Positions 8,367 through 12,595 of a DNA stretch of 36,512 nucleotides are shown piece after piece. The notes beneath the pieces were generated by a model, which searched no databases, had not been told where the DNA came from, and saw only the letters and a list, made by a program, of their open reading frames with translations. The first letter of the stretch is position 1; each line of letters starts with the position of its first letter. Where the stretch lies: contig JAPOLH010000007.1 in assembly GCA_029977225.1 (NCBI GenBank), forward strand, positions 1 to 36,512, read 5' to 3'. The translations under genes and the position numbers were made by a program. This stretch comes from Verrucomicrobiaceae bacterium (GTDB taxonomy: Bacteria; Verrucomicrobiota; Verrucomicrobiia; Verrucomicrobiales; Akkermansiaceae).

Positions 8367-8427
8367 GGCGATGAGTTTTTCCCGTCGGAGATGTAGATTT
8401 TGCAACAAATTTTCTGCTGGCGACGAT

Positions 8428-8466
8428 GTGTTTATAGGTTATGGTTTGACCGTAGCCTATAACCAC
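8428..8466 (+). promoter_or_regulatory. Dyad/hairpin (17-bp arms) just upstream of the Cys/Lys-rich protein gene; possible operator or structured 5' leader
   Basis: GTGTTTATAGGTTATGG-TTTGA-CCGTAGCCTATAACCAC: arms pair with one mismatch and two G-U wobbles. No T-tract follows, so it is not a terminator for this strand. Confidence 0.6.
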
Positions 8467-8484
8467 TAAAAAACAAACAACATC

Positions 8485-8850
8485 ATGAAACTGATCATTA
8501 CCGCGCTTTGCGCATCCATGCTTGTAATCCCGATGTCCTACGCTGACGAATGCGAAAAGGGCAAATGCGATAAGGAGAAAAAAGAAGGCACCCTGCTCAC
8601 CCACTGTGGCAAGTGTGAAGATAAAAAGAATTGCGACAAAGAATGCGAAAAAGACTGTGAGAAGAAGTGCGATAAGGAGAAAAAAGAAGGCACCCTGCTC
8701 ACCCACTGTGGCAAGTGCGAAGACAAGAAGGATAAGGATTGCGACAAGGAGTGCGACAAAGAGAAGAAAGAAGGCACCTTTGCTGGCAACTGCGACAAGT
8801 GCAAAAAGGATGGCGAGAAGGAAGAAAAGAAAGAGGGCACCTTTGCCTGA
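8485..8850 (+). CDS. Small predicted secreted Cys/Lys/Glu-rich repeat protein of unknown function (metallothionein-like composition)
   Basis: Signal peptide-like MKLIITALCASMLVIPMSYA followed by repeats KCDKEKKEGTLLTHCGKCEDKK; 14 Cys in about 100 mature residues; clear start, hairpin upstream and terminator downstream. Confidence 0.8.
   Translation: MKLIITALCASMLVIPMSYADECEKGKCDKEKKEGTLLTHCGKCEDKKNCDKECEKDCEKKCDKEKKEGTLLTHCGKCEDKKDKDCDKECDKEKKEGTFAGNCDKCKKDGEKEEKKEGTFA
8566..8615 (+). repeat. Copy 1 of perfect 50-bp direct repeat
   Basis: tgcgataaggagaaaaaagaaggcaccctgctcacccactgtggcaagtg, identical to 8668-8717. Confidence 0.95.
8668..8717 (+). repeat. Copy 2 of perfect 50-bp direct repeat (102-bp period = 34 codons)
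   Basis: Identical to 8566-8615; in frame inside the same ORF. Confidence 0.95.
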
Positions 8851-8883
8851 TGTTTTGCCCGCCTATCCAATTGATTTAACAAA

Positions 8884-8924
8884 TAAAGCCGTCGGATTTG
8901 AGTATCCGGCGGCTTTATCTTTTC
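8884..8924 (+). terminator. Strong intrinsic terminator downstream of the Cys/Lys-rich protein gene
   Basis: TAAAGCCGTCGGAT-TTGAGT-ATCCGGCGGCTTTA, 14-bp stem (one G-U), followed by TCTTTT. Confidence 0.88.
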
Positions 8925-9384: not shown

Positions 9385-11289
9385 ATGAAACTTTTCCATA
9401 AATTGGGTATTCTGCTGTTTTATTTGATGGCGTTACCGTCTCACGCGGAAATTCCATCCGATGTCGATATCGCGGATTTGAAGAAGGCTGCTTTGCAGAT
9501 TGACCAACAAGTGGCTGCATTTTATCGCGCCAAAAAATTTGACGTGCCGAAGGTTGCGGATGACGCGACCTTTATGCGTCGGGCATTTTTGGTGGCGGTG
9601 GGCAGGATTCCTACCGCGGAGGAGGCTTTGGATTTTCTGGAAATTGAGGATCCTTTGAAACGCGAGTTGCTGGTTTCCTATCTCATCAACTCGGAGGGGT
9701 ATCACAGCCACATGAGCAATTGGGTTTTTGATCTCATGCGTGTGACTGAGCGCGGCAATGGCGAGCGAACTCCTCGGGTGCCGTATCGTCATTGGGTGAG
9801 AGAGGCAATGGCATCGAATATGCCATGGGATGAGTTTACCAAGCGTTTGCTCAGCTCACAGGGTGATGGTTGGGACAAGGAAACCGGAGGAGTGGGCTAT
9901 TACACTCGGGATTTAGGCATGCCGCTGGACAATTTATCCAACACAATGCGGATCTTTCTCGGGGAGAGAATGGAGTGTGCGCAATGCCATGATGATCCTT
10001 TCGGCGATACCGAGCGTCATGATTTCTATCAACTAGCTGCCTTTACCCACGGGCAGGGTGCGGTCGGACAGAGTTTCGTTGCACCATTGATTTCCGAATT
10101 TAATACGAAAGAAAAACTATTTTCCCCTGAGTATCACGCGATTAAAATGCTTCGAGTTGGGGTGTACGAGCTTTCATTGGCTGGAGGAGGCAATGGCAGG
10201 ATACCATTGCCCTCGGACTATCAGTATCGCGATGGCAAGCCTGGAGAAATGGTGGCTGGAAAGACCCCTTTCGGTAAAATGGTGCGGACGTCGGACCGCA
10301 AGGATGAAGGGGATGGGCGCGTAAAACTCGCTGATTGGGTGGTCAACAAGACCGAAGGCCAGTTCTCCACGGTCATTGCCAACCGCATGTGGAAGCGAGT
10401 GATGGGCAAAGGGGTGATAGAGCCAGCGGACGAGTATGTGGAGGCGAAGGATACCAATCATCCCGAGTTGGTGGAGCTTTTGAGTTCCCTGATGGTGTCC
10501 CTCAAATACGATCTGCGCGCGTTTCAGCAGGTATTGCTGCTCACCAAGACCTTTCAGTTTGCGACCAATCCGCAGGCGTCCGTGCTCGAGGGTGGGGATG
10601 ATTTGCACGGGCGTAAGATTGACCGGCTTTCGGCCGAGCAGATATGGGATTCGTTGGTGACGCTTGCTGATGGGAATCCCGATCGCAAGCCGCGTAGGAG
10701 TCGCGATGAGCGGATCATCGTTGGGGGGCGCCCGGTTTTGGTTGGCAAAAAAACCATGTCTCAACTTTCAAAGGAAGTGCTTGCGCTGCAGTCGGAGAAG
10801 GATGTGCGGGCTTATTTCGATAAATTGCTCGAGGAGATCAAAATGGACGATCATTACCAAGCGAGCGGTGCGACGATGTCGATGACTGCAAAGGGTGTAG
10901 GCGACGGATCCAATCCGATGGTGCGGGCTTCCGAGTTGTCGTCGCCAGCACCGCGAGACCACCTACTATACATCTTTGGTGCATCTGACCGTGAGGTAGT
11001 CGATGCGGCCAGCAAAGAGCCGAATGTGGGTCAGGTGCTTTCTTTGATGAATGGTTTCGTGCAAGACAACTTGGTTGGGAAGTCATCCGCGCATTTGTAC
11101 AAGTGTCTGGAGGGAGTGAGCTCCAATGAGGAAAAAATCCGCCGCTTGTATCTGGCGATACTGAGTCGCCCTCCGAGTTCTGAAGAGATGGCTCTGATGA
11201 TGGAAGAACTTAAGGCGCGTGGTGACGAAGGATGCCGCAATATGGTTTCCGCCCTCATCATGTCTTCAGAATTTATCTTTCTCCAATAA
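9385..11289 (+). CDS. DUF1549/DUF1553 domain-containing secreted protein
   Basis: Signal peptide MKLFHKLGILLFYLMALPSHA; MRIFLGERMECAQCHDDPFGDTERHDFYQLAAF (DUF1549 motif with CxxCH); C-terminal LYLAILSRPPSSEEMALM...ALIMSSEFIFLQ (DUF1553). Confidence 0.9.
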   Translation: MKLFHKLGILLFYLMALPSHAEIPSDVDIADLKKAALQIDQQVAAFYRAKKFDVPKVADDATFMRRAFLVAVGRIPTAEEALDFLEIEDPLKRELLVSYLINSEGYHSHMSNWVFDLMRVTERGNGERTPRVPYRHWVREAMASNMPWDEFTKRLLSSQGDGWDKETGGVGYYTRDLGMPLDNLSNTMRIFLGERMECAQCHDDPFGDTERHDFYQLAAFTHGQGAVGQSFVAPLISEFNTKEKLFSPEYHAIKMLRVGVYELSLAGGGNGRIPLPSDYQYRDGKPGEMVAGKTPFGKMVRTSDRKDEGDGRVKLADWVVNKTEGQFSTVIANRMWKRVMGKGVIEPADEYVEAKDTNHPELVELLSSLMVSLKYDLRAFQQVLLLTKTFQFATNPQASVLEGGDDLHGRKIDRLSAEQIWDSLVTLADGNPDRKPRRSRDERIIVGGRPVLVGKKTMSQLSKEVLALQSEKDVRAYFDKLLEEIKMDDHYQASGATMSMTAKGVGDGSNPMVRASELSSPAPRDHLLYIFGASDREVVDAASKEPNVGQVLSLMNGFVQDNLVGKSSAHLYKCLEGVSSNEEKIRRLYLAILSRPPSSEEMALMMEELKARGDEGCRNMVSALIMSSEFIFLQ

Positions 11290-11293
11290 CACC

Positions 11294-12595
11294 ATGAGCG
11301 ATTCCATGTTTCGAAAGGCAGACGAGCTTACGCGTCGTCATTTCATGTCAGGTGCCGCCCGCACTTATCTTGGGGTGCATTTATTGCCGATGCTTGGATC
11401 GACGGTTGCCTCGGCAGGGACTGAGGATGCGGCGGCGGGAAAGGCCAAGCATGTCATTTACCTCTACATGTCGGGCGGGATGAGCCATGTCGACACCTTT
11501 GATCCCAAGCCCAAGAAGAAGGAGATCATGGGCAAGACTGAGGCGATTCCGACTAATGTCGATGGGCTGATGGTGGGGCATTACCTCAAAAAAACCGCAG
11601 AGGTGATGGACAAGGTATGTGTGATCAACTCCATGAATTCCACGCAGGGGGCGCATCAGCAGGGCACCTATGTCATGCAAACGAGTTACACCATGCGTGG
11701 CACGATCCAGCATCCTTCTGTGGGATCGTGGATTTTGAAACTGGCTGGTAAAATTCATCCCGAATTGCCGGGATATGTGGCGATTGACAGTCCGCCCGAC
11801 CACACTGGTGGAGGATTTTTTGGGGCCAAGTATGCCGCTGCGCCGATCGGTAGCCCGGGTGAGGGTTTGAAGGATTCGCGTCTTAGCCGTGGGGTGACCG
11901 AAGATAATTTTGGTCACCGACTTTCTTTGGCAGACAAGTTGAACCGTCAGTTTCATGGGCGTTATCCGAATGTGGATGTGAAAGCCTATGAGGATCTTTA
12001 TCGCGAGGCAGCTGCGTTGATGAAATCAAAGGATCTGGTGGCGTTTGATTTGAAGCTTGAGCCTGAGAGTGTGAGGAACCTGTACGGGACTGGTCGTTTC
12101 GCGCAGGGTTGCCTGCTTGCGCGGCGTCTGGTGCAGCACGGAGTGCGCTTTGTTGAGGTGCAGCTTGGAGGCTGGGATACCCATTTCGACAACTTCACAG
12201 GAGTCGAGGGGCGATGCAAAGAATTCGACCAGGCTTATGCCGCACTGCTCACGGACCTCGAAAAAACCGGCATGCTCAAGGACACATTGGTGGTGGTAGC
12301 GACCGAATTTGGCCGTTCGCCAACGATTGATAAAATTTTCAACGATGGTCGTGGCCATCATCCTGCGGCATTCAGTTGTTTGCTGGCTGGTGGTAGTGTG
12401 AAGGGTGGAACCAGCTACGGTGAGACGGATGCGACGGGGTCGCGGGTCAAGGATGGGCTTGTCACCGTACAGGATTTCAACGCGACAATTGCTTACGGAT
12501 TGGGCTTGCCGTTCGACAAGGTTGAGTATTCGCCGAGCAAGCGGCCATTTAAGATTGGCGACAACGGTACTCCGGTGAAATCGATCTTCAGTTGA
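11294..12595 (+). CDS. DUF1501 domain-containing protein (alkaline phosphatase/sulfatase-like fold) with twin-arginine-like signal
   Basis: LTRRHFMSGAARTYLGVHLLPML; YLYMSGGMSHVDTFDPKP, QLGGWDTHFDNF, VVVATEFGRSPTI...GRGHHPAAFSCLLAGG. Confidence 0.92.
   Translation: MSDSMFRKADELTRRHFMSGAARTYLGVHLLPMLGSTVASAGTEDAAAGKAKHVIYLYMSGGMSHVDTFDPKPKKKEIMGKTEAIPTNVDGLMVGHYLKKTAEVMDKVCVINSMNSTQGAHQQGTYVMQTSYTMRGTIQHPSVGSWILKLAGKIHPELPGYVAIDSPPDHTGGGFFGAKYAAAPIGSPGEGLKDSRLSRGVTEDNFGHRLSLADKLNRQFHGRYPNVDVKAYEDLYREAAALMKSKDLVAFDLKLEPESVRNLYGTGRFAQGCLLARRLVQHGVRFVEVQLGGWDTHFDNFTGVEGRCKEFDQAYAALLTDLEKTGMLKDTLVVVATEFGRSPTIDKIFNDGRGHHPAAFSCLLAGGSVKGGTSYGETDATGSRVKDGLVTVQDFNATIAYGLGLPFDKVEYSPSKRPFKIGDNGTPVKSIFS

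Follow-up and report, generated by a model that had tools for sequence, protein, structure and literature searches.

An apparently undescribed exported Cys-pair repeat family, near-universal in one genus of Akkermansia relatives, with a possible role in metal buffering

What might a short, Lys- and Cys-rich reading frame, flanked by ruvA and a mutT-like NUDIX gene, do for a bacterium of the Akkermansiaceae? The frame lies in a stretch of 36,512 nucleotides from Verrucomicrobiaceae bacterium (contig JAPOLH010000007.1), referred to here as the window. A sequence-only reading had described its product as exported, repeat-built and Cys/Lys-rich, of no family that it recognized. Sequence inspection, module parsing and a family alignment bear out that description. 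Beyond it, sequence comparison reveals a family spread through the lineage, with a conserved promoter region of its own. Metal binding appears to be the best reading of its function, helped by a C-terminal motif common to bufferin-like copper-RiPP precursors.

The gene and its modular product

The ORF runs from ATG to TGA through 121 codons (121 aa) and can be divided as follows, with a hairpin beyond it.

8485-8850, forward strand: whole gene for an exported Cys-pair repeat protein (ORF, purifying selection, family membership)
8485-8544, forward strand: Sec-type signal peptide, MKLIITALCASMLVIPMSYA (M1, K2, P16 and A20 invariant in a 28-row alignment; A-x-A site; no lipobox)
8545-8601, forward strand: module 1, DECEKGKCDKEKKEGTLLT (module parsing)
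8602-8703, forward strand: module 2, HCGKCEDKKNCDKECEKDCEKKCDKEKKEGTLLT, which carries an extra Cys insert (DNA repeat and module parsing)
8704-8784, forward strand: module 3, HCGKCEDKKDKDCDKECDKEKKEGTFA (DNA repeat and module parsing)
8785-8847, forward strand: module 4, GNCDKCKKDGEKEEKKEGTFA, with C-terminal KKEGTFA (C-terminal motif)
8883-8918, forward strand: terminator-like hairpin, 15 pairs and then CTTTTC, between the gene and mutT (hairpin fold)

The signal peptide was called by sequence inspection, from its n, h and c regions and its conserved A-x-A cleavage site, and it is present in 28 of 28 aligned members, in agreement with the signal peptide-like N terminus first proposed. There are 15 Cys in total, C9 in the signal peptide and 14 in the mature part of 101 residues (a density of about 14%), matching the 14 Cys originally ascribed to a body of about 100 residues. 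The mature protein consists of four modules, each with a KKEGT(L/F) end, and the KKEGT core does occur four times, as had been claimed. The CxxC and CxxxC spacings noted at the outset are there as well, to which a CxxxxC (C23-C28) has to be added. AlphaFold2, run without metal, gave no fold for the window protein or for L108, a member with regular 17-residue repeats (pLDDT 42 and 36).

The first reading had named conservation in related genomes and a coding-like substitution pattern as checks, and both came out in its favor. In all three pairwise comparisons among the window copy and its nearest relatives, L031 and L032, dN/dS was 0.08-0.09. Given this value of about 0.09 against two relatives and profile matches in 66 of the 73 genus genomes, the ORF is, on comparative grounds, a real gene. 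A long frame on the reverse strand was set aside as a mere mirror of the Lys/Glu/Asp-rich forward frame, on which selection acts.

At the DNA level, a repeat of 69 nt is present at 8563-8631 and 8665-8733 (93% identity), and a third copy is 62% identical. Four synonymous changes and one non-synonymous change separate the two long units in the window. Both contain LLTH, both L031 units contain LLSD, and the single unit of L032, which is without one 34-residue module, contains LLAD. The pattern suggests that the repeats are homogenized within each gene. Structural roles are common among repeat proteins that evolve in concert and vary in copy number, and the very high Lys content could also suit an envelope or extracellular polymer cross-linked via disulfides or lysines. 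Such a polymer seems to us very unlikely, however, as the members are short (56-199 aa) and charge-balanced, are without aromatics or hydrophobic stretches, and have no sorting or anchor domain.

A lineage-wide family and its upstream block

Searches by tblastn found matches in 35 of 59 relatives; in the genus, the 66 genomes matched by a 28-row profile include 45 of the 48 of good quality. Of 390 genomes sampled from the phylum, 14 had profile matches, all of them Akkermansiaceae. Other genera of the Akkermansiaceae also hold family members, and another family of the order contributes L021, a clear member; no profile match was seen in 20 listed genomes of g18, a further genus of the Akkermansiaceae. 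No relatives were found in the viral contigs and plasmids searched. Pfam, NCBIfam and PDB searches returned only weak composition or signal-peptide matches and no characterized family, so that the claim of no recognized family stands, and literature searches found no description of this Cys-pair repeat family. It is apparently undescribed, and near-universal in one genus of Akkermansia relatives.

Profile scores have to be read with care here, as composition-shuffled decoys, in a small set, reached profile E-values down to 2e-6. Because low complexity inflates these values, about 50 members were read individually and judged on their signal peptide, their module pattern, the promoter block and synteny. 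Nearly all of them consist of a signal peptide followed by 2-9 x [C-x2-5-C, Lys/Glu/Asp linker, G-T-L-A], the last module closing the protein with [GSA]T[LIVF]A or a near match; L109, which fits poorly and has no GTLA end, is a doubtful member. In 52 members taken together, K makes up 26% of the mature part, E 17%, D 13% and C 10.6%, and R, W and Y are essentially absent. The Cys number is even in 44 of these 52; spacings are 3-6 within a pair and 9-25 between pairs, and in the alignment the Cys pairs are conserved and the linkers drift. The extreme member (L115:1603-2025, in G064), with a 13-residue period and 8 x GCKKECDDEAVLA, was missed by the profile, and a match to the promoter block was the sole route to its detection. 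Judging from this minimal member, the retained essentials would be the Cys pair, the acidic stretch and the VLA end.

One can envision that such modules are cut apart, the protein being a polyprotein that yields short Cys-pair peptides (signals, bacteriocins or small chelators). Ends of the form [GSA]T[LIVF]x0-1A recur internally and C-terminally, the residues that follow resemble a mature start, and the junction TLA/DC resembles a signal-peptidase site. Module length and charge vary freely, however, and none of the linked genes is for a protease, a transporter or immunity; we consider processing of this kind highly improbable.

Two features precede the gene.

8404-8445, forward strand: promoter-like block of AACAAA, CTGGCG (8417-8422), N17 and TATGGT (8440-8445), conserved upstream of the family
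8446-8484, forward strand: 5′ leader, A/C-rich and without a Shine-Dalgarno motif (motif count, base composition)

The AACAAA of the window is GAATAAA in most relatives, and the genus form of the block reads GAATAAA-tttC-CTGGCG-N17-TAnnnT. Strict CTGGCG-N17-TANNNT was present in 20 of 54 distinct upstream regions, compared to 0.02 in shuffles, and a scan of the 73 genomes for GAATAA..CTGGCG gave 15 matches, 13 of them preceding family members. By its spacing, the block fits a sigma-70-like promoter; alternatively, it may be an ECF-type promoter, GAAYAA-N16/17-TCTSA. This ECF-like pattern is kept in outgroups where CTGGCG is not (window 8404-8445; L106-L108). GGAG, GAGG, AGGA and AAGG were absent from the last 20 nt of all 54 upstream regions (9.8 in shuffles), and the last 35 nt of family leaders are 47% A, 33% C and 7% G. 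Leaders free of Shine-Dalgarno motifs may reflect a general mode of translation initiation in the lineage. Folding of the 5′ leader gave no structure beyond chance (z 0.55), and Rfam gave no match above gathering score around the gene.

The upstream block travels with the gene while the neighbors vary. In 15 relatives the gene and tgt point away from each other, and SecDF-like genes follow tgt (tgt and SecDF-like are names read from the neighbor sequences); a TlyA-like gene adjoins in others, and mutT is often downstream across loci. These are housekeeping genes, variable between genomes. No operon partner was found, and no metal-handling gene is linked at these loci, where the neighbors are tgt-secDF, ruvA, tlyA-like and mutT. 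The gene stands alone. Downstream of mutT in the window, a DUF1549/DUF1553 gene and then a DUF1501 gene (9385-12595) are conserved in several relatives.

A possible role for the exported Cys pairs

We see about an even chance that the protein is an exported, intrinsically disordered, unmodified metal-thiolate buffer. Once the protein has left through Sec, each Cys pair would use its unmodified thiolates to chelate soft metal ions, with Cu(I), Zn(II) or Cd(II) as candidates, either in the periplasm or on the surface. We imagine that His might join the chelation in HCGKC modules, that gain and loss of modules could tune capacity, and that the protein would work in a bufferin-like way without a modifying MNIO enzyme. 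In its favor we count the near absence of R, W and Y, as in metallothioneins, the even and paired Cys, the drifting linkers, the dN/dS of 0.09, the lack of an AlphaFold2 fold and the C-terminal motif common to bufferin-like precursors. Against it, no metal gene is linked, and the Cys density is under that of classical metallothioneins. Thiols may also form disulfides in an oxidizing periplasm, which CxxC and CxxxC pairs suit too.

The Cys pairs might instead cycle as a periplasmic thiol/disulfide redox buffer or oxidant sink, shielding the envelope with no metal role. Even Cys numbers and close pairs are consistent with this, as are the mutT-type NUDIX gene downstream at many loci and the absence of the family from the 20 listed genomes of another Akkermansiaceae genus. 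However, the terminator-like hairpin separates mutT from the gene, and the neighborhood showed neither a thioredoxin/DsbA fold nor a reductase partner. A fixed CxxC is usual for catalytic thiol pairs, whereas here anything from 2 to 5 residues separates the two Cys. We regard a pure redox role as unlikely.

Might the Cys be converted by an enzyme encoded elsewhere, making the protein a RiPP-like precursor of a bufferin- or oxazolin-like copper chelator? Its Sec-exported Cys-repeat layout and KKEGT(L/I) ends are common to MNIO-linked precursors of the same genus, and MNIO-modified precursors commonly have Sec signals (PMC12452194). PF05114, the MNIO enzyme, had no match in the window genome, G000, although its absence there is not certain since that genome is 89% complete. 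Neither did it match in 61 of the 73 genus genomes, nor in 54 of the 66 family-positive ones. With PF05114 undetected so broadly, the window genome included, the family cannot generally depend on MNIO. Where MNIO and the family gene were on one contig they were at least 230 kb apart, and they were never linked; in the 12 genus genomes with MNIO, a different Sec-exported CxGKxGC-repeat precursor mostly lay beside it in the cases examined. Nor could any conserved neighbor be a modifying enzyme. Conversion of the Cys from elsewhere thus seems decidedly unlikely to us. Outright membership among the MNIO-RiPPs was rejected, with no precursor-model match and no PF05114 in G000 or those 61 genomes.

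The MNIO loci deserve a description of their own. They were seen in 12 of the 73 genus genomes, with one further precursor on a contig that showed no MNIO (L067-L074, L127-L133, L145), and their exported precursors have GKDGC or DDCPGK repeats and KK(E)G(T/A)IL-like ends, some weakly matching BufA2. They are probably uncatalogued bufferin-like RiPP clusters in Verrucomicrobiota. Two of four MNIO-linked precursors gave the weak matches to BufA2 (NF050166), at E 1.3e-7 and 0.0024, neither of them reaching the curated cut-off. Half of the collected MNIO-type precursors have the KK(E)G(T/A)IL-like end, compared to 0.001 expected by shuffling, although these precursors are interrelated and the motif endings are not ten independent cases.

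The C-terminal motif can be written (K/E)(K/E)EG(T/A)(L/I/F), and its strict form is found in 26 of 52 family members. A genus-wide DNA-pattern scan for it gave 36 matches, of which 30 lay in family genes, 5 in precursors with GKDGC repeats (3 of these immediately next to MNIO genes) and 1 outside any gene. The family profile did not separate MNIO-linked precursors from composition-shuffled decoys, so that only this short motif links the two groups. Together with export and Cys pairs, this common C-terminal tag is the strongest clue to function, and it would suggest that both groups do similar work, namely extracytoplasmic metal buffering.

Taking the unmodified metal buffer one step further, we can picture a "periplasmic metallothionein," an exported, enzyme-free counterpart of the bufferins. 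It would be built of tandem Cys-pair/GTLA modules, their number tuned by recombination, would carry a C-terminal recognition motif common to MNIO-modified copper RiPPs, and would be used where MNIO is absent. This fuller proposal is tentative, and we think of it as plausible rather than probable. An apparently undescribed, near-universal exported Cys-repeat family would be added to the Akkermansiaceae. If the proposal is true, extracytoplasmic thiol-based metal buffering need not always require enzymatic modification, which raises the questions of whether modified and unmodified metal buffers are evolutionarily interchangeable and whether KKEGT(L/I) is a functional tag.

Comparison with known systems

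Bufferins (BufA1, DUF2282; BufA2, NF050166) and Buf_EGKCG/oxazolins (HvfA) are MNIO-modified copper-binding RiPP precursors (PMC12452194). The family resembles them in being a short exported protein with a Sec signal peptide, in its repeated Cys pairs in a Gly/Lys/Glu-rich context, and in the KKEGT(L/I) end of the same-genus MNIO-linked precursors. It differs in its conserved GTLA module ends and stand-alone gene, and is without an NCBIfam match, a linked MNIO (none detected in most genomes), an EGKCG motif or a predicted beta-helix (AlphaFold2 pLDDT 36-42). When 28 members were compared with NCBIfam and Pfam, no bufferin model, whether BufA2 NF050166 or DUF2282, was among the matches.

Copper buffering with many thiols is also a feature of Csp1 and Csp3, and Csp1 is exported. 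These proteins are folded four-helix bundles, as described for Csp3 (PMC5171941), whereas the family is predicted to be unfolded in its AlphaFold2 models and gave no relevant PDB match to such a bundle.

Bacterial metallothioneins (PF02069, SmtA/BmtA) are likewise small, Cys- and Lys-rich and without aromatics, with presumed thiolate metal clusters. Metallothioneins are described as cytosolic (PMC8790569), whereas the family is exported and repeat-built, with a lower Cys density; Metallothio_Pro (PF02069) was absent from the Pfam matches of the 28 members and had no match in G000. By the tests run, the family belongs with neither the bufferins nor the metallothioneins, and it most likely works like one or the other.
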